This document shows, in pieces, positions 5,194 to 61,042 of a stretch of DNA of 64,000 nt (the first letter of the stretch is position 1; the number at the start of each line of letters is the position of its first letter). This DNA is from Siphonodentalium dalli (Eukaryota > Mollusca > Scaphopoda > Gadilida > Siphonodentaliidae). The notes below the pieces were generated by a model, which saw only the letters and a program-made list of their open reading frames with translations, did not search any database and was not told where the DNA came from. A program made the position numbers and the translations under genes. The stretch is from contig CP136061.1 of NCBI GenBank assembly GCA_032622095.1, forward strand, positions 59,227,301 through 59,291,300, given 5' to 3'.

Positions 5194-5226
5194 TATAAAT
5201 ATGCTTCAGTGGTTCGCGCTCAATCA
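5194..5226 (+). promoter_or_regulatory. TATA box and initiator, putative core promoter
   Basis: TATAAATA starts at 5194, and an initiator-like TCAGTC has its A at 5226. The 32-bp spacing is the usual metazoan TATA-to-start distance. About 57 bp downstream comes a strong splice donor (AAG|GTAAGT), so the pair would define a short first non-coding exon. Assigning it to the PLAC8-like gene rests on strand and proximity and not on transcript evidence. Confidence 0.45.
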
Positions 5227-5282
5227 GTCTTGTTCTGAAATATTTCCTTCCAACAAGAACATATTTTTTCGTATGAACTAAG
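5226..5282 (+). other. Putative 5' UTR exon with a two-codon uORF
   Basis: The interval runs from the initiator to the donor GTAAGT at 5283. It contains a single ATG at 5273 followed by AAC and TAA, a minimal upstream ORF next to the exon end. Splicing to the acceptor before 8923 would give a leader of about 66 nt for the PLAC8-like gene. Inference only. Confidence 0.4.
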
Positions 5283-6081
5283 GTAAGTGATTTGCTTGAT
5301 ATGTATTATGCTGTTTCTTTTCATTGTTGTTTTTTTTTCTGTTCTTTTCCTTTATTTTTTTATAATTCATGCTAATGGCTGCGGACATACGTACCACAGT
5401 AGATATGGCAAAGTAGGTGTGACAATTTATTATGGTGGAGTTTGGTGACAATTGGTCGTCATAATTAATGTGCCATATCTAGCCATGTCGCAAGCTGCAT
5501 ATTCGCACTGAATGAGTCTTCCAAATTTCGTTATAATAAGCCTTTTTTTGTTCTGTATGGTCCTTGTATATATAGTTCGCTTTGTTTATTCAAGATACTT
5601 TCTCTCAGCTGCATTTCCTCCAACAGTTCCGACACAGCTTCATCGGCCCAAATAATAATGTTAGCTGAACTAAACGTCGCAAAATAGAAAACGCAATTGG
5701 GGAACTGTCTTAATGCACATGAAATTAATATAAGTAGATAAACATGCATTGAGATCATATCAATAAAACGTACTACATACACGGGTATACGTGGCCTTGG
5801 TAAATATAACCAATATTATTTCTACATATAAACACAGTCTCTGCCACAGAGTACCGTATGTAGACAATTGTGGACAAGTTTAGAATTTATTGAAGATAAT
5901 CTATTCTACTTCTTTGTGTTTTGATGAATTGCGTCCATACATGCAGTAAACCACCAAAAGCGAAATACGAATGTTTCATCGCTTGATCGGAAGCAACTAT
6001 GACTACTATTTTGAGACATTGGCAATAGTATCTACACATTTTACCCAGTAGTCTATAACCATATTTTGAAAGATTTTATAT

Positions 6082-6601
6082 TCTCATATATATTTTGAAG
6101 ACCTCTGTCTGTCTGTCTGTCTGTCTGTCTGTTGTTGTCTGTCTGTTTGTCATTAATACAAATCTACGATTCTCGACCGATCGGGACGAAACTTGGTACG
6201 TGTGTGTAGATTGACCAGGCGGTGGACGTTGTCGTATTGGCGAGCCCGTGCGGCGCCCGTGCAGCGCATGCGCAGACGAGATCTCGGAAACGGGTGGAGC
6301 TATCGAATTGAAATTTGCTATGTGAATGTATCTTGCCCCGGATACGAATTTTATCGGGTCGCCGAGCCCGTGCGACGCCAGCTTCGCGCATGCGCAGACC
6401 GGATCTCGGAAACAGGTGGAGCTATCGACTTGAAATTTGGTATGTGAATGTATCTAGCCCCGGATACGAATTTTATCGGGTCGCCGAGACCGTGCGACGC
6501 CAGCTTCGCGCATGCGCAGACCATATCTCGGAAACGGGTGGAGCTATCGACTTGAAATTTGATTTTTGAATAGCCCGGACAACGTCGGGCTCATCGGCTA
6601 G
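6082..6601 (+). mobile_element. Helitron/Helentron-like non-autonomous element, copy 1
   Basis: Begins TCTCATATATATTTTGAAGA, followed by a (TCTG)n microsatellite (about 6104-6160) and a minisatellite of about 122 bp whose units carry CGCGCATGCGCAGACC and ATCTCGGAAACGGGTGGAGC. It ends with a hairpin (AGCCCGG...CGGGCT), a short spacer and CTAG. This layout of TC start, microsatellite, tandem core, 3' hairpin and CTAG end matches Helitron/Helentron-derived elements such as DINE-1-like and oyster pearl-type repeats. Its 3' end abuts the next copy. The short ORFs inside are by-products of the tandem repeat. Confidence 0.65.
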
Positions 6602-7969
6602 TCTCATATATATTTTGAAGACCTCTGTATGTTTGTATGTCTGTCTGTCTGTATGTCTGTCATTTATACAAATCTACGATTCTCGACCGATCGGGACGAA
6701 ACTTCGTACGTGTGTGTAGTTTGACCAGGTGGTCGTCGTTGTTGTATTGACGAGCCCGTGCGACGCCCATGCAGCGCATGCGCAGACGATATCTAGGAAA
6801 CTGGTGGAGCTATCGACTTGAAATTTGCTATGTGAATGTAAATTTTATCGGGTCGCCGAGCCCGTGCGACGCAAGCTTCGCGCATGCGCAGACCAGATCT
6901 CGGAAACGGGTGGAGCTATCGACTTGAAATTTGGTGTGTGAATGTATCTTGCCCCGGATACGAATTTTATCTGGTCGCCGAATCCGTGCGACGCAAGCTT
7001 CACGCATGCGCAGACCAGATCTCGGAAACGGGTGGAGCTATCGACTTGAAATTTGTTTTTTGAATAGCCCGGACAACGTCGGTAAATCTACGATTCTCGA
7101 CCGATCGGGACGAAACTTGATACGAGTGTGTAGTTTGAACAGGCGGTCGTCGTTGTCGTATTGGCGAGCCCGTGCGGCGCCCGCTTCGCGTATGCGCAGA
7201 CGAGATCTCGGGAACGGGTGGAGCTATCGACTTGAAATTTGCTATGTGAATGTATCTTGCCCCGGATACGAATTTTATCGGGTCGCCGAGCGCGAGCCCG
7301 TGTGGCGCCGGCTTCGCGCATGCGCAGACGAGATCTCGGAAACGGGTGGAGTTATCGACTTGAAATTTGTTTTTTGAATAGCCCGGACAACGTCGGTAAA
7401 TCTACGATTCTCGACCGATCGGGACGAAACTTGATACGTGTGTGTAGTTTGAACAGGCGGTCGTCGTTGTCGTATTGGCGAGCCCGTGCGGCGCCCGCTT
7501 CGCGTATGCGCAGACGAGATCTCGGGAACGGGTGGAGCTATCGACTTGAAATTTGCTATGTGAATGTATCTTGCCCCGGATACGAATTTTATCGGGTCGC
7601 CGAGCGCGAGTCCGTGCGGCGCCGGCTTCGCGCATGCGCAGACGAGATCTCGGAAACGGGTGGAGCTATCGACTTGAAATTTGCTATGTGAATGTATCTT
7701 GCCCCGGATACGAATTTTATCGGGTCGCCGAGCCCGTGCGACGCGCCAGCTTCGCGCATGCGCAGACCAGATATCGGAAACGGGTGGAGCTATCGACTTG
7801 AAATTTGGTATGTGAATGTATCTAGCCCCGGATACGAATTTTATCGGGTCGCCGAGCTCGTGCGACGCCAGCTTCGCGCATGCGCAGACCAGATCTCGGA
7901 AACGGGTAGAGCTATTGACTTGAAATTTGGTTTTTGAATAGCCCGGACAATGTCGGGCTCATCGGCTAG
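6602..7969 (+). mobile_element. Helitron/Helentron-like element, copy 2, expanded core
   Basis: Starts with the same TCTCATATAT end immediately after the CTAG of copy 1 and finishes with the same hairpin and CTAG at 7966-7969, followed by T. The core is expanded: a near-identical 314-bp block begins at 7082 and again at 7396, and units of about 122-124 bp continue to 7900. The bases flanking the pair are T on the left (6081) and T on the right (7970). Two copies head to tail suggest rolling-circle-type insertion or slippage. No Rep/helicase is encoded. Confidence 0.65.
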
Positions 7970-8146
7970 TGTAGATATAAAAATAAATGATGATCGGTCA
8001 CAAAATCAATACATCCAAATTAAATCACATTTAACTGTTTAATTACACATATATCACACGACTGAAAATAAACAGTGCAAATTAATCTTCGTTGTTTTTT
8101 TGTTCCTGGGCGCCCAAATGTCCAGATTTAACCGTTGTATGAGACC

Positions 8147-8205
8147 TTGCTTTCGCTTGCTTTCGCTTGCTTTCGCTTGCTTTCGCTTGCTTTCGCTTGC
8201 TTTCG
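8147..8205. repeat. 10-bp tandem repeat (TTGCTTTCGC)
   Basis: Almost six perfect copies of a decamer. The 10-bp period does not preserve a reading frame, although both strands stay open across it. No function seen. Confidence 0.9.
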
Positions 8206-8339
8206 TGAGATACATTAGAGATAGTTTATATATCACTGATACATTTTCATTTGTGCGCAATGATATTCCAAGACTGGTGATCCATGCGGCAAGAGTAATC
8301 ATTTTCGGCGAGTTTCTCTCTGAAACTGTCAATAAATAG

Positions 8340-8922
8340 GCCCAATAACTAACCCTACCCCATTACGACCATCGGTGACTTTGCCGATATGGGTTACCCC
8401 CAGAAATTGGCCAGAATATGCTCGATTATGAAATGTCGCACACAGATCTCATATAGAGGATTTTTTTTATTGGAATAGTGTACTGATTCGAAAAATGACA
8501 AAACCATTTGTATACACATTTTGTCTAGATCAAACACTATGTTGACTGGACTGCATGTGCCCGTCACTACTTTAGTTCCCGAGCAACTGCTCTATCATAT
8601 AACTCAAGTGGATTAGTAAGCTGATGTTTTGAACCTAATTTTAGAAGAGGTCTAATTTTGCAAAGTGACCCTTTTCATAATAAATATATAAAAACAAAAA
8701 TAAAAGACAACTCACTAAACATGGGCTTTATATATGACTAGGAATACGAACATATTTTTAAAGAAATCAGTTTACCCATATTGCAAAAAATATAAATATT
8801 GATTGCCCGTTAAATATCAGAGACAGTATAAGCTTCATTTAGATCCCCCCAAGTAATTTTAAGGGCGAGCACTCCTCATCAGTGTAATTCAATATGCTAT
8901 TTTTATCTGGTGGTCATTGCAG
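8340..8922. other. Non-coding stretch upstream of the PLAC8-like start
   Basis: No repeat or gene recognised. It ends with a 3' splice site (TGGTCATTGCAG, ending 8922), which would begin the first coding exon nine bases before its ATG. Confidence 0.5.
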
Positions 8923-8931
8923 AGCCGTGAA

Positions 8932-9064
8932 ATGACCACTGTTATAGTGAATCAGCCTGTGTGTGGAAGAATGGATGGTGCCCCCAGGCTGCTCGCGGCT
9001 CCGGTTGTTGGGACTCGGGACTGGTCAGCTGGCCTTTGTGGTTGTTTAGGCGATTTTTGCAATC
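8932..9064 (+). CDS. PLAC8-like gene, coding exon 1
   Basis: Encodes residues 1-44 plus one base. The acceptor before it ends at 8922 and the donor GTGAGT starts at 9065. The N-terminal part is a short variable tail rich in V, P and A, followed by the conserved RDWSAGLCGC start of the domain. Confidence 0.88.
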
Positions 9065-12000
9065 GTGAGTGAAGGTGTTAAAGACATATTAACTGCTTAT
9101 TTCACTACTTCAAACTGATAGCTTACTACTCTTACACTACACCCATTTGAATAATGTATATAAACTACTATTGTCGAAAACTTCAACAACAATGAATGAA
9201 TCATTTCATAAATCACACCATCTAATCTGAACTACGAACAAATGTAAACAATCAGTCCGCCATTCGTCCCGACCAAATCGCCGATAAACTAACGACAGTG
9301 TTACCCTTAGCGGCGAACAAATCGCTGATAAACTAACCACAGTGTTACCCTTAGCGAACAAATCGCTGATAAACTAACCACAGTGTTACCCTTAGCGAAC
9401 AAATCGCCGATAAACTAACCACAGTGTTACCCTTAGCGAACAAATCGCCGATAAACTAACCACAGTGTTACCCTTAGCGAACAAATCGCTGATAATCTAA
9501 CCACAGTGTTACCCTTAGCGAACAAATCGCTGATGATCTAACCACAGTGTTACCCTTAGCGATCAAATCGCCGATAAACTAACCACAGTGTTACCCTTAG
9601 CGAACAAATCGCTGATAAACTAACGACAGTGTTACCCTTAGCGGCGAACAAATCGCTGATAAACTAACCACAGTGTTACCCTTAGCGAACAAATCGCTGA
9701 TAAACTAACCACAGTGTTACCCTTAGCGAACAAATCGCCGATAAACTAACCACAGTGTTACCCTTAGCGAACAAATCGCCGATAAACTAACCACAGTGTT
9801 ACCCTTAGCGAACAAATCGCTGATAATCTAACCACAGTGTTACCCTTAGCGAACAAATCGCTGATGATCTAACCACAGTGTTACCCTTAGCGATCAAATC
9901 GCCGATAAACTAACCACAGTGTTACCCTTAGCGAACAAATCGCCGATAAACTAACCACAGTGTTACCCTTAGCGAACAAATCGCTGATAAACTAACCACA
10001 GTGTTATCCTTAGCGATCAAATCGCCGATAAACTAACCACAGTGTTACCCTTAGCGAACAAATCGCCGATAAACTAACCACAGTGTTACCCTTAGCGAAC
10101 AAATCGCCGATAAACTAACCACAGTGTTACCCTTAGCGAACAAATCGCTGATAAACTAACCACAGTGTTACCCTTAGCGATCAAATCGCCGATAATCTAA
10201 CCACAGTGTTACCCTTAGCGAACAAATCGCCGATAAACTAACCACAGTGTTACCCTTAGCGAACAAATCGCCGATAAACTATCCACAGTGTTACCCTTAG
10301 CGAACAAATCGCCGATAATCTAACCACAGTGTTACCCTTAGCGAACAAATCGCCGATAAACTAACCACAGTGTTACCCTTAGCGAACAAATCGCTGATAA
10401 ACTATCCACAGTGTTACCCTTAGCGAACAAATCGCTGATAAACTAACCACAGTGTTACCCTTAGCGAACAAATCGCCGATAATCTAACCACAGTGTTACC
10501 CTTAGCGAACAAATCGCTGATAAACTAACCAGAGTGTTACCCTTAGCGAACAAATCGCCGATAAACTAACCACAGTGTTACCCTTAGCGAACAAATCGCT
10601 GATAAACTAACCACAGTGTTACCCTTAGCGAACAAATCGCCGATAATCTAACCACAGTGTTACCCTTAGCGAACAAATCGCTGATAAACTAACCAGAGTG
10701 TTACCCTTAGCGAACAAATCGCCGATAAACTAACCACAGTGTTACCCTTAGCGAACAAATTGCTGATAAACTAACCACAGTGTTACCCTTAGCGAACAAA
10801 TCGCTGATAAACTAACCACAGTGTTACCCTTAGCGAACAAATCGCCGATAAACTAACCACAGTGTTACCCTTAGCGAACAAATCGCTGATAAACTAACCA
10901 CAGTGTTACCCTTAGCGAACAAATCGCCGATAATCTAACCACAGTGTTACCCTTAGCGAACAAATCGCTGATAAACTAACCAGAGTGTTGCCCTTAGCGA
11001 ACAAATCGCCGATAAACTAACCACAGTGTTACCTTTAGCGAACAAATCGCTGATAAACTAACCACAGTTTTACCCTTAGCGAACAAATCGCTGATAAACT
11101 AACCACAGTGTTACCCTTAGCGAACAAATCGCTGATAAACTAACCACAGTGTTACCCTTAGCGAACAAATCGCCGATAAACTAACCACAGTGTTACCCTT
11201 AGCGAACAAATCGCCGATAAACTAACCACCGTGTTACCCTTAGCGAACAAATCGCTGATAAACTAACCACAGTGTTACCCTTAGCTAGAGAGTCACCCAT
11301 TGTTCTCGACGGCTAATTATAAACACATAAAATTTAAGTCCGCCTGATATTTTCGAACGAAAAGTGAATTATGTTTAACACAAGCTACTTCTTCTCTGTG
11401 TGTATTATTTTCCGGAAGGGGGGTAACAATGCAAACGTTTCTGTCAATTTTTTTTACATAGAACATTTTATTTGTGTTTGGGAAGGTTACAAGTAAGAGA
11501 TGGACCATAGCCAAGAACTTAAACTACAGATAGTGTTTATCAGTGTCCCATAGAAGAATTACGCGAGATTAATAAACACCCCAAAAAAAAACTAAGTAAT
11601 TATACTGTTCAGTCAATCGTATTGAAAATTTGAACGATTTGAGAACGTGGTAAATGCAGTACATTATGAGCATCAATTAACAAGGTGGTGTTATAACATT
11701 CGTTTCAACGGTATTTGCTTTAAAAAAAACAATTCCATTAAAAAAAAAACTTTGAACTTTGACACCAAATAGCATCGCGTGCGCATGGATTAACTGTGTA
11801 GTAAATGACCAGTGTTGGTTTAGTGTCGCCGACCTTATTATTGCGTGCGATTGTTTTGAAACAGACCAGTTGTCACGGTATGGGAATTCAGTGATGATTT
11901 TGAAACACCCATATCTGACCCGTTTCATTCACTCGAAAGGAGCCATGCATGCCCCATATATATTACGGACAGAGCAAGGACTATCGCCATAGATGCAACC

Positions 12001-15000
12001 TCACAAAGTAGGTGGCTCGTAGGATATGGGTGTAAAGGTGTTCCACCGAAACCTGTTGGAAAACTCATGGCGAAATGTGCCCATTGAAAAAAGCGCATAT
12101 AGAACGAAAGACCAAAAATAACATCTCGGAGGTATATATGGCCGCCTGAGTTTGACACTCAGACATTAAATTTCGACATGGCAGATGACCATTTTCGTTC
12201 AAACTCGTTTATTCAATTTCTGTTTGGGATTCAAAATGTATGCCCATTGAAGTCTTTCACATAGCAATTTTCTTTAAATTAACCATAAGTTTTCCTATAT
12301 AGTTTGGTGGAACACCCATCCGCGTCCTATATACGAGCTGTCTGGTTTACGAGGCCGATGTGACAGCTGATATCTTTCAATGTAAAGGCGTGTATTCATA
12401 TATAAGGCCGGTGACAATAAATCAACAGTACCCATTTAACCCACGTGTTACTGTTGAGTGTCGCAGTTCAAAGTTTGATTTCTGAAAATGTACAAGTTTC
12501 CAATCAAAAGAATGTTATATAACGACACCAGGTTAATTACATCCCAGAATATGCTGCCTTTACCATGTTCTAATTTGTTCAAAATTTCAACACGATTGGA
12601 TGTATAGAATAGGATATACGGGTTATTATATGAGGGGGAACGTACGTTTTGTTTATAGATTTTTAGTTCATTTAGTGTTCTTCCTGCAAAATAAACCAAA
12701 TTCACTTTCCAACCGAACGTATTGGCATTCCTGAGAATAAATGCCACCAGATGCAGCTTTGAAGCATTATCAAACCAAAAGATGCACTAAATTTTAACTC
12801 GTAAACGGCACCATTGTTCTAACCCTTTAACCCTTTCAGTGCCAAGTCCAATGTTTGTATCAACCCATATTTCCTTGATCATTTTTCAAATTTATTGATT
12901 GTAATAATGTGATACATTGATGGGAAGAGCTCTTATAGCTCTTTCCATCAATGTATCACATTATTATAATCAATACATTTGAAAAATAATCAAGGAAATA
13001 TGGGTTGATACAAAAATCGGACTTGGCACTGAAATGGTTAACTGCGCATGTAGCTCGGAAGTGATTTCCGGATCATTTGAATGAAACCTATACACAGTGG
13101 CGTGGAACCATCAGATTCCGAGCTCTCCATAATCAACTTATATTTTCAGTGAGCTGGAAACATGATAACCAATATGTTATGTGTCTCGATCGATACTTTC
13201 TATTTATTCCCGTTGCGTGCGATACTATATATATTATAGTGTTACACAACTTACACTAAATTATGTTCCGTGATTGGTCAACCCATTTCATACCCCAATA
13301 CACGAACACGACGTCATAAATTGTTTACCTAATCTGACCTAATCACTAAAAGCGGTCGTTTCAAAGTTCAGCCGTATATATTCACACACAATGTGACCCA
13401 TCAACCACAGCGCCGTGTTCACCAATAACATACAGTAATTCCCAAATTAATTGACCACTTAACCACAGCAGAATTATGGGTAATTTTTCAGGATTTAGTC
13501 GGAAATATGGCCATTACTGTACACCGACTACATTTATTTCTGAAATATCTTTAGCTACACATGTAAATAAAGACTCGTTATTCTCTGAATATTAGAGGTT
13601 CTAGCTATCAATTTATATAGTATTGAAAGAAATCGATACGACGCCCATGACATCGCCATTCTTCATTGTGTCGACATAAATTATAAATTATGTTGATGTT
13701 CTTTGTATATATATATAAATACATTAACATAATATATCATTTAGGCATTTATGTCTTCCCCTTAATTCTAATTCCATAAAGAAAGAAAGGACTGTGTTGT
13801 CGATTGGGGTAGAACCGTATCTGTAATATATACCATTAAATACTTGGTTTCTATGGGAAAGACGCCACGCGGTGGAAGGGACCCTACAGTCAACAGTGAG
13901 GGAAACGTGGTTTAGCCTTCCTGGCACCAAATAATGACTTTTAAATTTGAATTGGATGTAACTCAATAGTAACACAATGTCAACGCACATACGTGTATCT
14001 AAACCGATATATTACCAAAGATAAGGTATAGCTATTTTGCGTAAACTCAGGCAAGAATTGTTATACATTCACAAAAGAATTTCTCTGTAAACTCCTGGGA
14101 ATCGTTAAAAAGTTAATCCTGTTCAAGTTCTGTGTTTGCACCACGCTTGGTGTGTTCCTTTTCAGTTTTCCTTGTATGTTGCTGTTATCCGTGGGCTCTT
14201 GCAAAGCTGGCTTCTAAACTAGGTGATTGCTTCTGCATGCCATGCTGTGTTCCTGGGTCCATGGTTGCAATGCGCACACGAATAAGGACCCTTGGAGGAA
14301 TACGCGTGAGTCATATAATTATATAGATGATTTACACCGAGTCCCCAGTTTATAGTGAAATTTAAAAAAAACGATTCCAGTAAAAAAATAGATCTGGACC
14401 CAGCCTTTGCCGAGGTCCAGACCCAATTTACTGGACGAGTTTTGTAAATTTCACGACAAGTTGGGTGCGAGTATTGTTGGAGATTCTATGTATTACTTGA
14501 CCCAAACCTCCATAAAACATACTTAAATCAATAACTGGGACGTGAAAGTAACAGCTGCTTCTATACGGTCTGCTATGACGTTTCACGTAACTATGCGTCG
14601 TTTGACCGCGTAAAGAAATAGTCCCAGACAAATAAGACCAAGCAACGTGTTCCAAATTCAAAGAATGGTAAAAATCTGCAAGTTGATTTTATTGTGGATA
14701 TGAAATACATGCCATCTAGTAAATTATTTAGTAAGACTTGTTTAGGGGGTAGCAGGAAGACAGCCCATCACAGCTAGGTTACCCCATCAATGTTCATCAT
14801 TACTTTGTTGTGTGCTATTGCCATTGTGCAATTCATGTGTGTATTGTAAATAAATTATCCTATCCTATCCTATTGTCATTGACCAAGACTGTACTCCTAT
14901 TATCGGCATTACATACATGATTTACAACTTATGACTGTGAAATGTGAAAGTATTCTCTCTGATTCCTGATGACAATCTCACAAAAGAACATGTGATTGCT

Positions 15001-17910
15001 GAATATTCTAAGTTTTTGTTTAGGCCATTGGCCTCATACCAGGAGAATTTCAGATCCAAATAGATCAAATGACAAAGCCTGTAGTACACCAGCCAAGAAA
15101 AATCCCATTAGCACTACAAGACAGACTGAAAGCTGAGTTGGAAAATCTAGCTGACACTGGAATAATTGCTCCTGTTATTGAACCAACGCCATGGTTTTCT
15201 TGCCTGGTTATTGCTGAGAAGCCAGATTCGATATTTCGTGGGGAAATCTGGATTCAGAATCCGAAACCGATTACGGGGACGGGGCTAAATCAAGATTACA
15301 CAGATTCTAGGTCATATTTTGAAATCCACGACGTCGTCGATACTAGATTTAATGCCCCCCCCCAGCGTCAAACATAGCGCATGCATTTGGCACAAGTATT
15401 AATTTGCATCTTATATGTATAATGTTCATATTTGTTGTGAAAGTCATGCATGGCACCCAATTAGCTGCCAATCCGCTCTTAGTCGAGTCTTTTTCAAGTT
15501 AAAGTTTGTTTATTGATGAGAGCAAGAATTTCTAACAGCTATCCTGAATCAAATTCCGAAGAGGTTTTGGAGAACACACGAAACTTCCAACAGTTGGAAA
15601 TTTCATGCCTGACATAACATTAGTTGGACATTAGACACCAGATATAGGTTGGAATTGTTCTCATTGTTTGATTTTCCAACCAGTAATTAGTGTGTGAAAT
15701 GGTCATCAGTTGGTAATTTTCCGACCGTATAATAGGGTGTGCCAGGTTGGATATTTCCAAGGGGGTGCAAATGGAATTCTGCGAACCTGGGAGTTTGATT
15801 CGGGGGGGGGGGGGGGGGGGGGGTGGGGGGGGGGGGTGGTGCAGTTGGTAATTTGAAGGGACCCCCATGGGAACCCTCTGGCCACGTCCTAAGAACTTGT
15901 ACGTGTGGGTATTTAATCAAATACATTGACAGACATTTCGACTATAGTCCTGCGTCCTAGAATAAACTTTACATTTAACTCAATTACTTAATCCTTATTC
16001 GGAAATTGTGACAAATGACCACGGGAATGTCCTTGGTGAAGTGGGATGTTGCATTGAGCCGAAAAATAAATCGGGCCGAAAATAAGCAGAGTCCTAAAAT
16101 AAAGGGATATTGTCCAAAATAACTTCAGAATCGTACGGTACCTAGGCGGAATATTTTTGGCCGAAAAAACTTGGACTTGTATTTAAAAAAGTGCTCCAAA
16201 AGTGACCCAGCCCTCTGCTTGGTCGGGAAAATTTTGAAAATGTGCCAAAAATGACTCACATGCATTTGTGTGCGAACCTGGGCGATACATTTGAGGCCGA
16301 AATAAAAAACCTTTGGGTCGAAAATATCGGAAATATCGGAAATTGTGACGATTGATCACGGGAACATCCTTATTGAAGTAAGTCGTAATTTAGGGCGTTC
16401 TTGTGATCATTTGCCACAATTTCAGAAATGTTCCCGACCGAGCAGAGGGCCGAGTCATTTTCGGACCACTTTTTGAAACCCAGACCAATTTTTTTCGGCC
16501 CGAAATGTTTCGGCCATGTGGCCACTCGCGAATTTGGGGCATTTGCCACATTTTCCCATATCTTTGGGTTAAAATTTTCATTGTATAATCGAAAAACAAA
16601 AGCGTGCATTGATTTTAAATGATATATCTATTAATTTGGAATTGTCACCTTTGATTTTCAGTCGACGTTTGAATATAAACGTGACATTTACTTTTGCGTT
16701 GATAAATTATTGGGTTTAAAATATTAGTTGTAAAATCGAAAAACACGAGCGTTGATTTTGAAACTATTTCTATTGTCTTCGAATTGACATATTGATTATT
16801 ATTTGACACATAATGATTTTCATTCGACATCTATTAGCCTGGTTATACATCATACGTTATGAACACCCACAAACGACGTTTATTACAAATTGGCGACTTA
16901 CATTTATAAATTTGTGTTTTGTCCATGGCATTGGTTATAATATATACGATAGATGTTTCCCATTCGTGCCTTTTTCGCAAATATTTACTTCGAAGCTAAG
17001 TGTAATAATTCGCACCATGGCACAGAATATATTATTTGTTGTTTGACACTTTCTGATTTTTGAAAGGATGTCTATTAATTTAAAATGATTTATCATTAAT
17101 TAAAGTTTTCAAAAATATATATATATACAATAAGTTTTGATGGATGACTATTTAAAATAAACGTGACATATATTTTTGTTACTAAATAATAATTTAATCT
17201 AGAACTGGCATATTTAAGAAATAAATACACTGCGCATCGGCGTGTATAGTAGAATATGACCACACAGAAACTGATTGTAGGACGACGCGAAGCGGAGTCC
17301 TACGATCAGTTTCTGTGGTTAAATTGCCGATGCGCAGTGTATTTATTTATTTTGTAATTCGACTGTATGGTCTGGTCGAAATTGTAGTGACATACGTTCA
17401 ACCTGCTATACAATAGCCCAGTTTCTAGCTCTGCAAAACCAATTTCAGTTAAGATTTATTTTTGTTCTATCCTAAAAAGACCAGTATAGTACAGCAGGCT
17501 GCAGGTAGTCATTATATGTCTCTTTCTTCGGTATATTATAGTATGATATTAACCAATACCCGTGTGGTTTGACACCTGAAAGTTTGGGGCGTTGGCAGCA
17601 TTTCACTGATTGTACCATATGAATACATGATACTGACCAATCAGGTCTTTGTAGGTTTAGGCAAGTTCGTATTACAATGATTGTTATTGGACACCTATTG
17701 ATTTTCATTTTAGAAACCAAATGGCAGTCCATAGATGTGTACCAAATTGGGATTCCAAGAACCTAATAACCACATTCATGGGCATTTTAGTGGTGTATAA
17801 TTCATATCTCATTTCAGGGATCAATATGTACGGACTGTATGGTCGTGTCGTGTTTACCGACATGTGCACTGTGCCAGATGCTCAATGAAGCGGACAAGAT
17901 GGGCCTATGA
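8932..17910 (+). CDS. PLAC8/cornifelin-like cysteine-rich protein gene, join(8932..9064,14166..14305,17818..17910)
   Basis: A 121-aa PLAC8-domain (Pfam PF04749) protein assembled from three exons. Exon 1 begins MTTVIVNQP and carries the family signature RDWSAGLCGCLGDFCN (residues 29-44). Exon 2 gives FLVCCCYPWALAKLASKLGD (46-65), CFCMPCCVPG and MRTRIRTLGGIR. Exon 3 gives GSICTDC, then CLPTCALCQMLNEAD, and ends at TGA. Both donors are GTGAGT and both acceptors are TTTCAG. Exon 1 leaves one base that completes a codon with exon 2; exons 2 and 3 join in phase 0. The ATG has G at -3. Animal members include PLAC8/onzin and cornifelin: small, Cys-rich, often membrane-associated proteins of unsettled molecular role; plant relatives affect metal transport and organ size. 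Intron 1 (5.1 kb) holds a satellite, intron 2 (3.5 kb) TE fragments. An AATAAA lies 120 nt past the stop. Confidence 0.9.
9272..11285. repeat. 41-bp satellite array, about 49 copies, in intron 1
   Basis: Head-to-tail monomers of 41 bp that include ACAAATCGCCGATAAAC and CAGTGTTACCCTTAG, with little divergence. Recurrent variants (CC/CT in GCCGAT, AAAC/AATC, GAAC/GATC, CACAG/GACAG/CAGAG) form higher-order repeats. An eight-monomer block of 331 bp, marked by a 3-nt GCG insertion, occurs at about 9272-9600 and again at 9601-9931, and four-monomer blocks (164 bp) recur near 10531-10695. Homogeneity implies recent expansion. It sits between coding exons 1 and 2 of the PLAC8-like gene. Confidence 0.95.
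11290..12826. other. Intronic sequence without recognised features
   Basis: AT-rich DNA between the satellite and the piggyBac-like hairpin, within intron 1 of the PLAC8-like gene. Several ORFs under 100 aa exist on both strands, but none resembles a known protein. Confidence 0.5.
12831..13037. mobile_element. piggyBac-like foldback MITE, 207 bp, TTAA-flanked
   Basis: TTAA at 12827-12830 and TTAA at 13038-13041 bound a nearly perfect hairpin. The left arm begins CCCTTTCAGTGCCAAGTCC and the inverted right arm begins CCATTTCAGTGCCAAGTCC. Arms of about 103 nt meet at GAGCTCTTATAGCTC (about 12935). The TTAA duplication and CC[C/A]TTT-type ends are typical of piggyBac-derived MITEs. Intronic in the PLAC8-like gene. 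Confidence 0.85.
13457..13511 (+). repeat. Single-arm fragment of the 35.8-kb hairpin element
   Basis: TTAACCACAGCAGAATTATG and TCAGGATTTAGTCGGAAATA match the left arm of the palindrome at 35729-35946. Only one arm is present here, so it is a broken or partial copy. Confidence 0.75.
13512..14165. other. Intron 1 sequence up to the exon 2 acceptor
   Basis: No repeat or gene recognised apart from a short AT microsatellite near 13707. It ends with a polypyrimidine tract and acceptor (TGTTCCTTTTCAG, ending 14165). Confidence 0.45.
14166..14305 (+). CDS. PLAC8-like gene, coding exon 2
   Basis: Encodes residues 45-91, the cysteine-rich core (CCCYPW, CFCMPCC) and the MRTRIRT segment typical of the family. 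Acceptor TTTCAG precedes it; donor GTGAGT starts at 14306 immediately after the CGC codon. Confidence 0.9.
14745..14871 (+). mobile_element. Possible 3' end of a truncated LINE
   Basis: A 3'-UTR-like stretch ends GTAAATAAATTATCC followed by further TATCC repeats. Short pentamer tails of this kind are common at CR1/Jockey-group LINE 3' ends. No coding part is left. Confidence 0.35.
15013..15245 (+). pseudogene. Ty3/gypsy-type retrotransposon pol fragment (N-terminal reverse transcriptase)
   Basis: Translation reads IGLIPGEFQIQID, then PVVHQPRKIPLALQ, DRLKAELENLADTGIIAPV and a PTPWFSCLVIAEKPD block. That is the conserved region at the start of Ty3/gypsy reverse transcriptase (PVVH.PRK.P...LK.EL..L...GII.PV.EPT.W.S..V...KPD). 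An in-frame stop lies just upstream (about 15020), and homology ends after KPD, before the catalytic motifs. No LTRs were seen. It is a short relic in intron 2 of the PLAC8-like gene. Confidence 0.8.
15560..15900. repeat. Second copy of the 4.8-kb dispersed repeat
   Basis: Matches 4782-5160 in word order (CCAACAGTTGGAAA, GCAAATGGAATT, GGCCACGTCC). It contains the G-rich homopolymer described separately. The proline-rich reading frames on the minus strand are artefacts of that tract. Confidence 0.5.
15802..15836 (+). repeat. Poly-G tract, G22-T-G12
   Basis: Uninterrupted G from 15802 to 15823, one T, then twelve more G. Such a run can form G-quadruplex structures and is prone to length change and assembly error. 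It is in intron 2 on the coding strand of the PLAC8-like gene. Confidence 0.9.
15990..16600. repeat. Foldback repeat cluster
   Basis: CGGAAATTGTGACAAATGACCACGGGAA (about 16001) recurs diverged at about 16339, and its inverse appears at about 16392-16430 (TGTGATCATTTGCCACAATTTC). A second inverted pair is CCCTCTGCTTGGTCGGGAA (16211) with TTCCCGACCGAGCAGAGGG (16431). Probably a degraded foldback element; no TSD resolved. Confidence 0.5.
17218..17349. repeat. Hairpin, about 132 bp
   Basis: AAATAAATACACTGCGCATC pairs with GATGCGCAGTGTATTTATTT, and an inner arm CACAGAAACTGATTGTAGGAC pairs with GTCCTACGATCAGTTTCTGTG around a short loop. A compact foldback sequence inside intron 2 of the PLAC8-like gene. 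Confidence 0.85.
17818..17910 (+). CDS. PLAC8-like gene, terminal coding exon
   Basis: Acceptor TATCTCATTTCAG ends at 17817. The exon encodes residues 92-121, GSICTDC, MVVSCLPTCALCQ and MLNEADKMGL, then TGA at 17908. The DC...C.P.CALCQ segment is the conserved C-terminal half of the PLAC8 domain. Confidence 0.9.
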   Translation, partial: GSICTDCMVVSCLPTCALCQMLNEADKMGL

Positions 17911-18029: not shown

Positions 18030-18035
18030 AATAAA
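18030..18035 (+). terminator. Candidate polyadenylation signal of the PLAC8-like gene
   Basis: AATAAA about 120 nt after the stop codon. Position is plausible, with no transcript evidence. Confidence 0.4.
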
Positions 18036-18194
18036 TCGTGCATAACCTGGCATGGTTTTTCTACATTTGTGTATTGCATTCTGTGGGCTGGATGTGCAGT
18101 GTGTAAGCCTGTTCTCGAGGATTTGCCTCTTTTCCGATTTTGGCCAGAGTGGCCGCCCCAGTGTTTGGGTGCCCCGCGCTAGGAGTGCACCAGA

Positions 18195-23599: not shown

Positions 23600-26500
23600 A
23601 TCACACTAAAGCTCAACCTGAATATGGGATATTGTCAAATGTTACAGTTAATGGAGGGATAGGGAATGCGGACAGTTGGTGTGTCTATGTAATACTAAAC
23701 ACGCAACGGATTTAGTCATACAAAGAGTAAAATACAAGATGGCCACTGGCAGTCATGTTTTTAACTTAATTCGGAAAAAATGGTAAACTCACATATAGAG
23801 AACACTCCGAAGATCCATGTGAAGTTTGGTGACGATCGGATGAGAGATGTGACCTGTAATGTGTGCTGAAATATATAGTTATACAAAGAGTAAAATCCAA
23901 TGGCCACCATGTTTTTAACATAATTCGGAAAACTGGTAGGCCTAAGCTTCTCATCTAGAAGTCACTGGCATCCCGAAGATCCGTATGAAGTTTGGTGACG
24001 ATCGGATTAGAGAAGTGACCTGTATGGCGCACTAAATGATTCAGTCATAGAAAGAGTAAAATCCAAGATGGCCGTTGGCAGCCATGTTTTAACAGAATTA
24101 TGAAAAAATTATAAGCTACCATCGAGATGTCACCCCGATTATCCATATAAAGTGTGGTAACGATCGGATGAGGGGTCTGACCTGTAGGGTGTGCCAAAAT
24201 TTATAATTTAGTGATGCAAAGAGTAAAATACAAGATGGCTGCCAGCGGCCATATTTTTCGTCGAAAATCGTTCAATTCTATAGCTCCCATCTAGAGGTGA
24301 TCCCAAACAGGCCTGTAAATTTTAAAAACATTTCGGAAATAATTGTGGGATGCATGGCGTGCCGATGGATCCGAATTTGAAATCCTATAGCCCATATAGA
24401 GATCACCCCGAAGATCCATGTGAAGTTTGGTGATGATCGAACCAGGAAGTGGCATGTGTGGTGTGCCAAATGATTTAGTGATGCAAAGAGTAAAATTCAA
24501 GATGGTCCATATGAAGTTTGGTGACGATCGGGTGAGGGGTGTGACACGTAGGGTGTGATAAGGGATTACGTCATACCAAGCGTAAAATCCAAGATGGCCG
24601 CTGGCAGTCATGTTTTTTAAAACATAATTCGGAAATGAAATTGTCAATGACATTTTAGCTCAACTTGGGGAGGGGATAATTTCACGTGTTACAGTCAATG
24701 GATCGATTAGGAATGTGGAAAGTTGAAATGTCTGAGTATACTGGATATCAACATGAATATAAATATATAGAAAGTAACATCGAAGATGGCCGCTGGTGGC
24801 CACATTTTCCAAAGAAACTCAAAATATTTGGTAGGTCCCATCTAGTGGTCAACCCGAATATCAATGTGAAGTTTGGTGATGATCATATGAGGAATGTGGT
24901 CTGTGGGTGTGCTCATGGATTTAGTCATGCAAACAGTAAATTCCAACATGGCCACGCTTTTTAACGAAATTCGAAAAAAAGAAAGATTATTCCCATCATG
25001 TGGTCATCACGAAGATACATGTGCAGTTTAGTGACAATCGGACAAGGGATGTATCTAGGGTGTACCAAAGATTGTCATACAAAGAGTAAAATCCAAGATG
25101 GCCGCTGGCGGCAATGTTCTCCCAACGGAATTTGGAAAAGTGTTATGGCTCCTATCTAGTGGTCACCCAACATATCCATGTGAAGTTTGGTGACAATCGT
25201 ATCATGCAGGGATGTGGTATGCAGGGTGTGCTAAAGTATTTAATCATGCACAGAGTAAAATTCAAGATGGCTGTCGGTGGCCATGTTTTTCAAAAAAATG
25301 TTCAATTTTGATAGCTGCCATCTATAGGTGATCCTAAACATGCCTGTAATTGTTCAAAACAATTCTCCAATAAATGCGGACCACAGGGTATGCCGATACA
25401 TTCAAATTGAAATCTAAGATGGCTGTTGTCGGTCATGTTTTATCACACATTTCGGAAAAAAATATGGCTGCCATCTAGAGGTCACCCCGATGATCCATGT
25501 GAAGGTTGTGCCCAAGGATTTAGTCATGCAAAGAGCAAAATCCAAGATGGCTGCCGCCAGCAATATTTTATGGCAGAATAACCCCAAAATGACTCGTTGC
25601 CATCAACATGTCAATGTTAACAATGACAAATTTCATGATGATCAGACGAACATTCCGGCCTGTAGCCAGTTCTAATGGATTAAATTGTTAATTCCAATAT
25701 GGCTGCTACACATCTACATGTCAATGTCAACAGCCATGACAATTTTCATAATGATCTGATCAATGGCGCTATCGACATGTAGCCCATGCCAAAGGATTTA
25801 GTCATACAAAGAGTAAAATTAAAGATGGCTGCCGGAGGCCATGTTTTATGGCAGAATGACCACAAAATGACTCGTTCCCAACTATATGTCACCATTCATG
25901 ACAAATTTCATACTAATGGATTGAATTTCGAAATCCAAGATGTTTTCAACGAAATTCGGAAAACTTTGATGGCTCCCATCTAGAGGTCACCCCGATGATC
26001 CATATGGAGTTTGGTGATAGATGAGGTCTGTATGTTGTGCCCAAGGATTTAGTCGTGCAAAGACGGCGGCGGCCATGTTTTATGGACGAATGACCCCAAT
26101 ATGACTCGTTCCCATCTACATGTATTAACATCCACGACAAATTTCACGATGATCAGACTAACATTCCGGCCATTGGCCGTGCTAATGGATTGAATTTTGA
26201 AATCCAAGATGGCCACTGGCGGCCTTGACAAATTTCATAATGATCCAAGCAAAGGTACGACCTGTAGTCGGCGCAAAGGATCTACTCATGCAAAAAGTAA
26301 AATCCAAAATGACTCGTTTCCATGTGCATGTCAATATTAACATCCACGACACATAAGATACTATGGGTGGCGGGATGGGGTGGTGGGTGGGATATCATTA
26401 GACTACTTATTTATGTGGGCAGTAGCCTCTATACGGGCGCCTGTGGCGCATAAGATACTATGGGTGGCGGGATGGGGTGGTGGGTGGGATATAATTAGAC

Positions 26501-28740
26501 TACTTATTTATGTGGGCAGTAGCCTATATACGGGCGCCTGTGGCGCATAATATACTATGGGTGGCGGGATGGGGTGGTGGGTGGGATATAATTAGACTAC
26601 TTATTTATGTGGGCAGTAGCCTATATACGGGCGCCTGTGGCGCATAATATACTATGGGTGGCGGGATGGGGTGGTGAGTGGGATATAATTAGACTACTTA
26701 GGCCGTGCTAATGGATTCAAATTTGAAATCCAAGATGGGCGCCAGCGGCCATGTATTTTTTGACGAATGACCCAAAAATTACTCGTTCCCATCTAAATGT
26801 CAATATTAACATCCACGACACATTTCATGATGATCAGACGAACATTCCGGCCATTGGCCGTGCTAATGGATTGAATTTTGAAATCCAAGATGGCCACTGG
26901 CGGCCTTGACAAATTTCATAATGATCCAAGCAAAGGTACGACCTGTAGTCGGCGCAAAGGATCTACTCATGCAAAAAGTAAAATCCAAAATGACTCGTTT
27001 CCATGTGCATGTCAATATTAACATCCACGACACATAAGATACTATGGGTGGCGGGATGGGGTGGTGGGTGGGATATCATTAGACTACTTATTTATGTGGG
27101 CAGTAGCCTCTATACGGGCGCCTGTGGCGCATAAGATACTATGGGTGGCGTGATGGGGTGGTGGGTGGGATATAATTAGACTACTTATTTATGTGGGCAG
27201 TAGCCTATATACGGGCGCCTGTGGCGCATAATATACTATGGGTGGCGGGATGGGGTGGTGGGTGGGATATAATTAGACTACTTATTTATGTGGGCAGTAG
27301 CCTATATACGGGCGCCTGTGGCGCATAATATACTATGGGTGGCGGGATGGGGTGGTGAGTGGGATATAATTAGACTACTTAGGCCGTGCTAATGGATTCA
27401 AATTTGAAATCCAAGATGGGCGCCAGCGGCCATGTATTTTTTGACGAATGACCCAAAAATTACTCGTTCCCATCTAAATGTCAATATTAACATCCACGAC
27501 ACATTTCATGATGATCAGACGAACAGTTCGGCCTTTTGCCTGTACTAATGGATTGAATTTTGAAGCCCGTGCCAAAGGATTTCATGCAAAGAGTAAAATC
27601 CAAGATAGCTGCCGGCGGTCATGTATTATGGCCGAATGCCCCCAAAATGACTCATTCCCATTTACATGTCAATATTAACATCCACGACGAATTGTATGAT
27701 GATCAGACGAACTCTCCGCCTGTAGGCCGTGCTAATGGATTCAAATTTGAAATCCAAGATGGGCGCCAGCTGCCATGTATTTTTTGCCGAATGACCCAAA
27801 CATGACTCGTTCCCATCTACATGTCAATGACAACAGCCATGACAAATTTCATAATGATCCGACCAAAGGTACGACCGTGCTAATGGAATTGTTGGCGGAG
27901 TCTCCACGCACGTCGCACACACGGACGACGGATACCAACCCATGACAATAGCTCAAACTTTACAAAGTAAAGTTGAGCTTAAAATGGTAGACTCCCAGCA
28001 AGAGGTCACTCCGAAGACCAATATGAAGATTGGTGACGATCGGATGAGAGATGTGACCTGTAGATTGTGCTAAAGGATTTAGTAATAAAAATAGTAAATT
28101 CCAAGATGGCCGCTGGCAGCCATGTTTAAAAAAAAACAGAATTCGGAAAAAATAGTAAGCTCCCATCTATAGGCCATGCCGAAGACCAATATGAAGTTTG
28201 GTGGCGATCGATTGAGGGATGTGGCCTGTAGAGTGTGCCAAAGGATTTAGTGATCCAATGAGTAAAACCCATGATGGCCGCTGGCGGCTATGTTTTCCGT
28301 TGAAAATCGGGAAAATTGGTAAGCTCCCATCTAGAGGTCACCATGATGATCCACGTGCAGTTTGCTGATGATCGGGTGAGGGATGTGGCCTGTATGTTGT
28401 GCTAATGGACTCAAACTGAATTCCAAGATGGCCGCTGGCGGCCATGTTTTTCAACGAAATTCGGAAAAAATTGTAAGTTCCCATCTAGAGGTCACCCGAA
28501 CATATAGTCTTGTAACACTGACCACAGATAGCTGAGCATCTATCGGTATCGATTCGAGTCACGTGTGGAGAATATCCGAAGATCCATGTGAAGCTTGGTA
28601 ACGATCGGATGGGGGATGTGGCATGTAGGGTGTGCCAAAGAAAATTGTTGACGGATGCACGCTCATGCGCCCGGACGACGGACGACCAACCCACGACAAT
28701 AGCTCAAACGTTACAAAGTAAAGTTGAGCTAAAATGTCTC
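23600..28740. repeat. Five-kb array of diverged units carrying AAGATGGC
   Basis: Repeated module of very roughly 150-250 bp: AAAATCCAAGATGGCCGCTGG, GGCCATGTTTTT, TTCGGAAAA, CTCCCATCTAGAGGTCACCC, GATCCATGTGAAGTTTGGTG, ACGATCGGATGAGGGATGTG, then GTGCCAAAGGATTTAGTCAT. Many units are shuffled or truncated. Boundary sequences TTTAGCTCAAC (about 23614 and 24656) and AAAGTTGAGCTTAAAAT or its variant (about 27965 and 28720) suggest several elements with inverted AGCTCAAC ends joined in tandem. All ORFs inside are short and unrelated to known proteins. Confidence 0.85.
26147..27508. repeat. 681-bp tandem duplication with a nested 97-bp satellite
   Basis: The word ACATTCCGG occurs at 26161 and 26842, and GGGTGGCGGG at 26365 and 27046; both pairs are 681 bp apart. 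Within each copy, a 97-bp unit (TGGCGGGATGGGGTGGTGGG, ATTTATGTGGGCAGTAGCCT, CGGGCGCCTGTGGCGCATAA) repeats 3.6 times (26365, 26462, 26559, 26656 and again from 27046). The copies are nearly identical, so the duplication is recent or kept uniform. Confidence 0.92.
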
Positions 28741-34726: not shown

Positions 34727-35425
34727 GCACGATTTAAGCGCAATAAGATATTCCGTAAGTGGGCTTAAGCGCAATTACATCCTTATTGTACTTAAGCGTA
34801 ATTAATATCTCCCTCATGAGATCACCCCTCTGCAAATAGTAGAATCCGAATAGACCTACATGTGGACAGTCACCAGGTCACCTCGCCAATAAACTCCACC
34901 CATCGCACTATGGACTTCAAGAAATCACAAAATTTCAAGTTGTGGAGTTTAAAATTACAGGGCAATTGAAAAAAAACAAGGCAATCTCACACGACTTCCC
35001 CGTCATTTTGGGCTGAAGTTTGTGATAATGTTCTGCCAACCTCCCCCAAGCCGATCCACCCTGCCAGGTTTATTTTTTATAAACTTCTTGAAATGTGTCT
35101 CTCTGCACATGGTGTGATTCTTTTGGTGTGCCCGTTATTTAGTAAAGGTGATTTTTTTTACTAAATAACGGGAATACCAGATATATATTTCTTTGAAAAA
35201 CTCAAAACATTGGGCGACGATGGGGAAGTCGTATGATATTGCCAAAAAGAGCACGCCAATATGGGAGGCCAAATTCACATTTAATAATGAATTGCGCTTA
35301 AGCGCAATTGATTGCGCTTAAGCGCAAATGCCACATATTGTACTTAAGCGCAAATAGGGCATTTACGCTTAAGCGTAATTAATTACGCTTAAGCGCAATC
35401 AATTGCGCTTAAGCGTAATTGTGAC
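34727..35425. repeat. GCGCTTAAGCGC palindrome arrays, part 1
   Basis: CTTAAGCGCAATTA-type palindromes occur at 34730-34803, then densely at 35290-35420 as ATTGCGCTTAAGCGCAATTG. The intervening DNA is unique. CCAAATTCACATTTAATAAT before the second block reappears inverted at about 37120 after the part 2 array, so 35260-37150 is bounded by an inverted repeat. Confidence 0.85.
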
Positions 35426-35728
35426 TACTATCTAACCTACCCATAAACTATTAGCATGACCTGGTGTATCACCTAGCAACACAAGATGAGCATTGGGCTA
35501 ATTTTGACCTGTAATCAACAGTCAAACTGTGAGTGTGTGTTCAACAAGGAGAATCCCCTAATTACATATTATCAGCATCCCTATATCCAAAGAATTGATG
35601 TCGCCTTCCCGGAACTCTAGTAATGTTTTGTATGATGTTTTTAATGTATTTTTGCACAGCTTTTAGCCTTTACTATGGTAATATCCTATACATGCATGCT
35701 GTGTCACTGCATGAGGGCTTTCTTAGCT

Positions 35729-35946
35729 CATACAGTAATGCTCTATTTAATCGACTTCTTAACCACAGCAGAATTATGGGTAACTTTTCAGGATTTAGTC
35801 GGAAATATGGCTTGTTGCCATTCATCGAAAAGCTCTCGAGAGCTTTCCGATGAATGGCAACAAGCCATATTTCCGACTAAATCCTGAAAAGTTATCCATA
35901 ATTCTGCTGTGGTTAAGGAGTCGATTAATTAGAGCAGTACTGTATG
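35729..35946. repeat. 218-bp palindrome (foldback element)
   Basis: Arms of about 108 nt centred at CTCGAG (35834-35839): CATACAGTAATGCTCTATTT ... GTTGCCATTCATCGAAAAGC pairs with its complement ending GCAGTACTGTATGG. Only a few mismatches. Partial copies at 13457-13511 and 18195-18275 show it is a dispersed mobile sequence. No clear TSD. Confidence 0.9.
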
Positions 35947-36463
35947 GTTTACTTATTGACTTAAATCAGGGGGAAAAAACCCTATTTTCATATTATCAGC
36001 ATCCCTGTCCAAAAAATGGTGTGTAATTACTGGAGCTTTGGTGTCTCAGTCCTGAAGCTCTAGTTTTTCGTATTAAATCAGCAGCTCTTGCACAAATCTA
36101 TAGTATTTCCATGATCATATAGTGTGAATGTGGTGTCACCGAGGGCTTGCTTCCCTCATATGGTGTGCCTGTATACTCGAAAATTTAAGAAAATCAATGT
36201 CGCCCCGACGACTAATACAGAAAGTAATGCTATTGAAAGTAGCCCCAACTAATATATACCGAAGATAATATATTGCTATCACGAATCGCTCCAACTAAAA
36301 CAGAAGGTGATACTATTGCGAGTCAGCCATTTTGATAAAGAAGTTGGGCTAGCTCCCTACCCATCCAAACCAATGAAACCAAGAAGTGACATGTCAATAG
36401 GAGTTAATGCTAAGTTATGGAGAAACCTATTTATTCACCAGGGGTGTTTTGTTACATATAACC

Positions 36464-37125
36464 ATGAATTGCGCTTAAGTGCAATTAATTGCGCTTAAAG
36501 GTGGATTATCTCTTTGTAAACATGTATTATATAGTTACCGGCGTATAAAATATTAGATTTGAATCGAAGACTCCTGTCCGGAAATGCTTCTATCGATTAA
36601 TATTAATTTTATTTCGAATATTTTCTGGTCTAAAAAGGTGTGTTTGTTCAGCTAACGAACAATAGTGGTTACTGTTAACATAGACCAGAAATTATATTGT
36701 GCAATTTTGTCACAAATAAACGTTAATTATACTCATTATCGCTTATATCTGTGGAACAAAACAATACAAACAACCAATCTGCGACATTTGACATTCGTTG
36801 CGTAGCCGTAGGAACAGCCCAGTGCTCTACATGTATATCGCAATACGGTCTCATCCGAATGGTCGGTTCTAAAAATAGTAACATAAATGGGCCCGATTTA
36901 ATATTCGAAATAAAATAAAATATTAATTGATAGAAGCTTTTCCGGACATAGGTCTTCAGATCATATCTATTATTTTATACCCACGCAACTATTTAAAATT
37001 TGTTATTTAAAGAGATAATCCATCTTTAAGCGCAAATAATTACGCTTAAGCGCAATTAATTACGCTTAAGCGAAATGATTGCGCTTAAGCGAAATTGATT
37101 ACGCTTAAGCACAATTAATTATTAA
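36464..37125. repeat. GCGCTTAAGCGC array, part 2, split by a MITE
   Basis: Palindromic words flank the MITE at 36499-37025: AATTAATTGCGCTTAA on the left and TTAAGCGCAAATAATTACGC on the right, continuing to 37115. Removing the MITE and one TTAA restores GCGCTTAAGCGC. Confidence 0.88.
36499..37025 (+). mobile_element. TTAA MITE, family A, 527 bp (Kolobok/T2-like)
   Basis: Flanked by TTAA at 36495-36498 and 37026-37029. Starts AGGTGGATTATCTCTTTG and ends AAAGAGATAATCCATCT. The outer 130 nt of each side pair with each other (CTTCTATCGATTAATATTAA against its inverse near the right end). Other copies: 52374-52893, 54440-54959, a LINE-split copy (58098-61044) and a half copy (61622-61866). Confidence 0.9.
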
Positions 37126-37171
37126 ATGTGAATTTGGCCTCCCATACGCCAAAGAACGAACTTGATTGATA

Positions 37172-38514
37172 CAGGGGTGGCGCCAGGATTTCCCCGACAG
37201 AGGGGCTATGGTCCCCGACAGGGGGGCTAGACCGGTGACCGAAGGTCATCGGCGGCTGCCGAAGGCAGCCCCGGGGAGAGCTCGAGAGGGATGTCCCCTC
37301 TCGCACGGGGGGTTTGGGGGACCTCCCCGACGAAAATTTTGAAAATACATAGCCTGAGATCGATTCTGGAGTGTTCTGGTGTCAACATACACACTGTTCT
37401 AGGGGATCATAATTGTCACTTTTACTTGAGTATTTGGAAAAAAAAATCAGCATATACAATAGTAATGACAATATGGAATTGATCTTAAAGGTACTCAACC
37501 CGTAAAGAGGGTCCCCATCTCAACATATTCCAACAACAACAATCCGATCAGAGGGTCCTATATTACTATTTCTTTGGCTTTGGGGGTAAAAAATATTTGA
37601 TTCGAGTCGAGGAACCTATCAAACAAAGCTCAGAGTTATTAGATATTGATTTTTGAAAATTCTTATGTTCTCGAGATGAGTACTGATAACTGCCGTCAAT
37701 TTGGTAACCTGCTCGAGATTTTAGGCCAAAATTCTATTCAAACAGACAAGGATGGATAACTCTATAATCAAGTGGGTAATAATAACGAATTTTTGATTGT
37801 CTTCTGGGCCAGAAAGAATTCCCGATAATGAAAAATAATAGATTTCTAATATCGATATCTAACAAATCTGAGCTTTGATAGGTGACTTCCTCGACTCGAA
37901 TCAAATATTTTTGACCCCCGAAGCCATTGAAATAGTAATTGAGAGGAGTTTTATCGGGTTGAGTACCTTTAAGTTAACTCACCTGGGTGTGTTCCTTTGA
38001 TCATTTCGAGCATTTCTGAATTTTATGACGTCATTGTCAAATAATATTTGGTCTTCTTGTTTGACACCCATTACAGGGCTGTTTTTTCGGCGACGCATAG
38101 GGAACGGGAAAGGGAAGATTCGGCAGTGTGAGTCTGTGTGGAATTTGTAATACATGTAACACGACACACACGAGGATGGTGACGGCATCTATGACACCCT
38201 AACCCTATAGTTCCATGCACGAATTTAATAAGTATACGATATGACTCACGGTAGTCTCACGAGTGACTCGTGTCGAGTCTGTCGGACTAAAAATAGAACT
38301 CTGGTAATGTGATTCATTAACTCTGCACGCCCACGTCGATTTGTTAATCACCAGTGCGCGTGTTTCGAGTCGCGGATTTTCCAATGTTTATCGTCTTTGC
38401 ATAATTTTATCTCCCCGACGAATTTGGCAGATATCCCCGACGGGGGGGCTGACCATCCCCGACGGGGGGGGGGGCTGTAGCCCCCCTGACCCCCCCCCCT
38501 TGGAGCCACCCCTG
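37172..38514. mobile_element. hAT-like element, 1343 bp, perfect 8-bp TSD
   Basis: GATTGATA at 37164-37171 and 38515-38522 is an exact 8-bp target duplication. Ends are CAGGGGTGGCGCCA and, inverted, CAGGGGTGGCTCCA. Subterminal DNA on both sides is G/C-rich with repeated CCCCGACGGGGGGGCT words and runs of up to 11 G. A family C MITE is nested inside (37489-37968). No hAT transposase is encoded, so it is non-autonomous. Confidence 0.9.
37489..37968. mobile_element. TTAA MITE, family C, 480 bp, nested in the hAT element
   Basis: TTAA at 37485-37488 and 37969-37972. Left end AGGTACTCAACCCG; inverted right end AGGTACTCAACCCGATAAAA. Long arms share ATTTGATTCGAGTCGAGGAA with the inverse near 37893. 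A related complete copy is at 49775-50219 and a truncated one at 48879. Kolobok-like ends. Confidence 0.85.
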
Positions 38515-38522
38515 GATTGATA

Positions 38523-39190: not shown

Positions 39191-39194
39191 ATAA

Positions 39195-61005: not shown

Positions 61006-61042
61006 TGTATATATAACACATGTTTACAAAGAGATAGACCAT
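60218..61042 (-). pseudogene. LINE reverse transcriptase, N-terminal part
   Basis: After a vector-like stretch from the MITE (first 14 or so codons, MVYLFVNMCYIYKQ), the LINE reads FNRFFCSIASNLVAKLP. Reverse transcriptase motifs follow: KMARVVPIYKKGD, NYRPVSVLNLVSKVLEK, GHQPGFRPGYSTDTCLLYL, the catalytic LIDLQKAFDTVDHEIL and GVPQG. The frame then breaks just before the expected LGPLLF-type segment. Its apparent ATG belongs to the interrupted MITE and not to the LINE. Confidence 0.88.

Follow-up and report, generated by a model that had tools for sequence, protein, structure and literature searches.

The question raised by this locus is whether three short exons, separated by long introns, are the coding part of one genuine spliced gene, as a first-pass annotation had proposed, and, if so, to which protein family the product belongs and where the transcript begins. 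The analysis covered the window, by which we mean the whole stretch of 64,000 nucleotides of DNA in which the locus lies.

Coding exons, splice sites and family match

The first-pass annotation had placed three exons of 133, 140 and 93 nt in phase on the forward strand, and their coordinates proved correct: they span about 9 kb and, when joined, make up 366 nt, a multiple of three, and encode 121 aa plus a stop codon in one open frame without an internal stop (Table 1). Read without splicing, the frame of exon 1 stops at 9070 and that of exon 2 at 14324, and upstream stops in frame are located at 14114 (exon 2) and 17788 (exon 3). Both coding introns are of the GT-AG type. The GTGAGT donors and TTTCAG-type acceptors described earlier can be read directly in the sequence, as ATC/GTGAGT after 9064 and CGC/GTGAGT after 14305, and as TTTTCAG/TTTTCC before 14166 and ATTTCAG/GGATCA before 17818 (a slash marks the junction). 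The G+C contents of the three codon positions over the 366 nt were 52, 55 and 46%, in a stretch too short for these values to count as evidence.

Table 1. Coordinates of the coding exons, introns and candidate signals (positions are those of the window)
Feature	Position	Strand	Remarks
Possible TATA box, TATAAATA	5194..5201	+	Pattern only
Possible non-coding first exon	5226..5282	+	Tentative; from the A of an Inr-like TCAGTCT to AAG/GTAAGT
5' UTR stretch leading coding exon 1	8923..8931	+	Only if the TTGCAG acceptor before 8923 is used
Coding exon 1	8932..9064	+	133 nt; encodes the N-terminus, VIVNQP included, and the beginning of the PLAC8 domain
Intron	9065..14165	+	5101 nt, phase 1; contains an array of 49 copies of a 41-bp unit (9270-11285)
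Coding exon 2	14166..14305	+	140 nt; central portion of the PLAC8 domain
Intron	14306..17817	+	3512 nt, phase 0
Coding exon 3	17818..17910	+	93 nt with TGA (17908-17910); C-terminal portion of the PLAC8 domain
AATAAA, candidate poly(A) signal	18030..18035	+	About 120 nt past the stop codon

Splice sites were scored with approximate metazoan consensus frequencies, and all ranks given here and below depend on these weights. Among the 3740 GTs of the + strand, the donors after 9064 and 14305 ranked 190 and 95, respectively; for the acceptors, the ranks were 42 (before 14166) and 31 (before 17818) among 3113 AGs. From 9100 on, two of 231 AGs (the claimed one included) scored equal to the acceptor before 14166 or better; from 14330 on, the same was true of 2 of the 161 AGs with respect to the acceptor before 17818, which, itself included in that count, is outscored by the AG at 15366 (5.5 vs 3.49). 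The coding splice sites are good, not extreme, and the case for the gene is carried by the protein match.

A search of the joined translation against Pfam PF04749 (PLAC8), which the first-pass annotation had suggested, gave an E-value of 1.2e-10 and 42.7 bits (cut-off, 34.4), with residues 31-115 aligned to the full length of the profile (positions 1-101 of 101). The same protein matched the NCBIfam model TIGR01571 (PCR/CNR Cys-rich domain) with an E-value of 2.6e-10 and 41 bits (cut-off, 35.05). Exon 3 alone matched PLAC8 positions 78-101 below the cut-off (E 2.4e-4, 22.4 bits), and neither exon 1 nor exon 2, each translated alone in its own frame, matched any Pfam family at an E-value of 1 or better. 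Because the protein contains 16 cysteines, the contribution of its composition was tested by shuffling: none of nine shuffled copies with the same cysteine-rich composition matched PLAC8, and three of the nine weakly matched other families (E 0.037 to 0.086), under the cut-offs of those families. The PLAC8/cornifelin-type identity put forward earlier is established for the predicted protein by the full-length PF04749 match together with TIGR01571, both above their cut-offs. The protein also has two moderately hydrophobic stretches (residues 35-51 and 94-110); a search of solved structures returned a single match, which was not significant (E 0.28).

The three-exon coding gene looks real, easily missed and ordinary in its biology. 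Very probably, it is a spliced animal protein-coding gene whose 121-aa product belongs to the PLAC8/cornifelin family.

The 5' end, the 3' end and the surrounding repeats

The beginning of the transcript is a separate matter. We see about an even chance that the coding gene is real and that its transcript starts elsewhere, either from another upstream exon, at a transcription start site just before 8932, or with a trans-spliced leader at 8923, in which case the TATA box and leader exon (5194-5282) would be part of a different transcript or of none at all. This alternative bears on nothing but the 5' end and agrees with the preferred reading of the coding exons. It is favoured by the abundance of TATA-Inr pairs at such spacing, of which the window holds 39 on the + and 49 on the - strand (Markov sequences gave 14.75, to be compared with the 39 on the + strand); TATAWA itself is enriched in the window (197 vs 89 in Markov sequences). 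Pairs followed by GTRAGT within 200 nt were found twice on the + strand vs 1.3 expected, and, of 100 Markov sequences, 30 contained the exact 9-mer of the donor after 5282, which is expected 0.34 times. Furthermore, the acceptor before 8923, TTGCAG with a poor pyrimidine tract, is mediocre, ranking 249 of 3113, and 19 of the 153 AGs in the intron upstream of it, the claimed one included, score equally well or better. The proposed leader can claim in return that its donor after 5282 is the best-scoring of all 3740 on the + strand, and that the combination of TATA, Inr and AGGTAAGT occurs once vs 0.2 expected.

It should be noted that the TATA box, the Inr, the GTAAGT donor and the ATG-AAC-TAA (5273-5281, inside the possible first exon) described in the first-pass annotation are all present, but that they are near chance level. 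The annotation had itself flagged their link to the coding exons as tentative, and with so many TATA-Inr pairs and a weak acceptor it stays so; the first exon is best regarded as guesswork. Once joined, the leader would measure 66 nt and contain a single ATG, which has a pyrimidine at -3. A pyrimidine at this position makes a weak ATG context, and, should the leader be genuine, this ATG would therefore probably be bypassed by the majority of scanning ribosomes. Scanning the leader for sigma-70 signals is not informative for a eukaryote.

Beyond the stop codon and the candidate AATAAA, the sequence becomes T/G-rich at about 18054-18105. As a poly(A) signal, it is suggestive only, because AATAAA is common in the window, with 73 occurrences on the + strand (1.14 per kb).

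The locus had been described as lying across 13 kb of repeats, which is overstated: by self-comparison of the window, which sees only repeats with a second copy in the window, so that the true share may be higher, repeats account for 4721 of the 12717 nt of 5194-17910, and 83 nt of these match outside the region. They are mainly tandem arrays, namely those at 6241-7929 in the intron upstream of coding exon 1 and the 41-bp array in the intron between coding exons 1 and 2; the same self-comparison within the window found no repeats in the exons. Searching the window with tblastn recovered the three exons and neither a second PLAC8 gene nor stray exons (next best E 0.66). No RNA families were detected at the gathering threshold, and no tRNA was detected by ARAGORN. 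The window also carries reverse-transcriptase pieces and a 1609-aa C2H2 zinc-finger frame, which, along with the introns, would fit animal DNA.

Alternative readings of the coding exons

It is improbable that the three exons are the remains of a decayed or unexpressed duplicate, i.e., a pseudogene in which no stop codon has arisen so far. Long introns with repeats would suit such a duplicate, as would the replacement of the plant-family CCXXXXCPC by CNLFLVCCC; however, the 121 codons run without stop or frameshift, the coding introns keep GT-AG, and the family match is full-length and above both curated cut-offs, with the N-terminal motif present.

More improbable still is that the gene is real with its junctions a few bases off, e.g., at 9068/14128, a join that would keep the frame and add 14 residues. 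Ten protein versions, to which this comparison was limited, were scored against PLAC8: eight hand-picked from 192 open combinations among the 2112 near the claimed sites, and two incomplete proteins, one made of exons 1+2 and the other of exons 2+3. The claimed joins came out on top and 9068/14128 next with 39.1 bits, which is still above the Pfam cut-off, but 3.6 bits below the claimed join and at the price of an insertion midway through the cysteine motif. The other eight versions reached 34.0, 31.8, 30.9, 29.8, 19.6, 14.6 and 12.9 bits, with one giving no match. The Pfam E-value takes no account of the latitude in selecting the joins, but would stay small if corrected for the 2112 combinations near the claimed sites. 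A retrocopy is ruled out because introns are present.

Relatives, proposed function and meaning

PLAC8 proteins occur in fungi, algae, plants and animals, and their function is poorly understood, according to the available parts of PMC8501656 and PMC6488628. The animal cornifelin family (CNFN, PLAC8/onzin and PLAC8L1) likewise consists of small, cysteine-rich, PLAC8-domain proteins, a likeness drawn here from profiles and the N-terminal motif. In the accessible sections of PMC8501656, human PLAC8 is given as 115 aa long, similar to the 121 aa here, and as having five exons in all, compared with the three coding exons seen in our locus. Two further animal examples are likened to the present gene by their descriptions. 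One is the planarian Dj-Plac8, also a PLAC8 protein, which is reported from pharynx, intestine and epidermis and as responsive to LPS (PMC7958881, in part); the other is the cornifelin-like g04846 of the ascidian Botrylloides diegensis, also an invertebrate PLAC8-domain gene and a marker of stigmata cells (PMC12212465, in part).

The plant PCR/CNR/FW2.2-like family (TIGR01571) shares the domain model that matches here. As far as the available text of PMC12467093 goes, the PCR cadmium-resistance group carries CCXXXXCPC (or CLXXXXCPC), whereas the present protein has CNLFLVCCC at residues 43-51, which keeps only the spacing of three Cys from the plant motif; the PCR/FWL group has QXXRELK after the last cysteines, in place of which we read QMLNEAD. 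A plant-like cadmium-transport role appears less likely because CCXXXXCPC is not kept.

Database searches covered viral, prokaryote and phage collections, in which misses say little on an animal gene: the protein search of viral contigs gave three pattern matches and no relatives, prokaryote genome contigs gave 27 pattern matches and no relatives, and phages gave no matches. A motif scan for viral relatives picked out two stretches, neither of which is a relative (best tblastn E 1.5). Among the matches listed in literature searches, none combined cornifelin with molluscs, brachiopods or sea stars, and none combined PLAC8 with oyster, mussel, sea urchin or hemocyte, from which absence is not implied.

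Together with the AATAAA after the stop codon, the hexapeptide VIVNQP at residues 4-9 is new relative to the first-pass annotation. It fits the zDABM consensus (VIAP)(VIT)XXQP, and motifs of this type appeared at residues 2-21 in 62 of 100000 shuffles, a figure that does not amount to a clean test, the motif having been sought after the sequence and the paper were seen. According to the available portion of PMC5655499, this consensus mediates binding of the S-acyltransferases zDHHC17 and zDHHC13, an N-terminal motif of the type is present in all three human members (CNFN, PLAC8 and PLAC8L1), and cornifelin is palmitoylated on 5 sites and is a zDHHC13 substrate. The fourth position of our motif is Asn, and because Asn, as the same portion of that paper points out, is missing from binders, this residue would speak against strong zDHHC binding.

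Given these likenesses, the product may be a small, cysteine-rich membrane-associated protein, anchored through its hydrophobic clusters of cysteines and through the S-acylation of several of the 16 cysteines; VIVNQP at its N-terminus would then be a putative docking site for a zDHHC17/13-type acyltransferase of the host. Its role could match one that reports attribute to the animal family: epithelial, immune or in the control of cell number. That the protein works in this way, like animal cornifelin/PLAC8 (membrane-held, S-acylated and zDHHC17/13-docked), we put at somewhat below an even chance.

Whatever the mechanism, the gene is an ordinary one, and its product is one more member of a widespread and known family. 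With respect to annotation, it illustrates how readily ORF-length filters discard small genes whose exons are short and whose long introns carry arrays. The docking-type motif offers one testable lead on the lipidation of animal PLAC8 proteins. If the host is an invertebrate, as published work on PLAC8 genes permits, VIVNQP would suggest, although we hold this to be unlikely, that zDHHC17/13 docking of cornifelin-type proteins predates vertebrates; recruiting an S-acyltransferase would then be basal in the animal family and not a speciality of keratinocytes or immune cells.

Array and inverted repeat in intron 2

Intron 2 (5101 nt) of the PLAC8/cornifelin-type gene holds an inverted repeat, with 105-nt arms that are 93% complementary and separated by 5 nt, and a 41-bp tandem array whose unit contains both ACTAAC and CCCTTAG. 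The complete ACTAAC..CACAGTGTTACCCTTAG string is found in 29 of the 49 copies. By sequence, the copies resemble weak branch points paired with an AG, and they would have to be passed over in splicing. Scored with approximate metazoan consensus weights, on which the ranks depend, the AGs of the array have a low median acceptor score, and the best of them ranks 94th among the 3113 AGs of the plus strand.

Features of the window
Feature	Positions	Strand	Remarks
Tandem arrays, periods ~106–128 and 314 bp	6241-7929		within putative intron 1
Tandem array, 41-bp unit, 49 copies	9270-11285		within intron 2
Inverted repeat	12827-13041		within intron 2
Two arrays, common 97-bp unit	26352-26700; 27033-27381		
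Multiple arrays centred on palindrome ATTGCGCTTAAGCGCAAT	35291-39487		
Open frame, 1609 aa	42193-47022	+	~20 C2H2 zinc-finger matches
Reverse transcriptase piece	59493-60194	-	Pfam RVT_1, under cut-off (E 6.8e-5)
Reverse transcriptase piece	60218-61042	-	Pfam RVT_1, over cut-off
Reverse transcriptase piece	62970-63416	+	Pfam RVT_1, over cut-off

Other repeats and coding frames

The arrays of putative intron 1 are richer in G+C than the rest (0.51 for 6001-8000). Downstream, the 97-bp arrays have 3.6 copies apiece and start 681 bp apart. The zinc-finger frame is one uninterrupted ORF, for which no intron is required. The two minus-strand reverse transcriptase frames adjoin (59493-61042) and may represent a single interrupted element.
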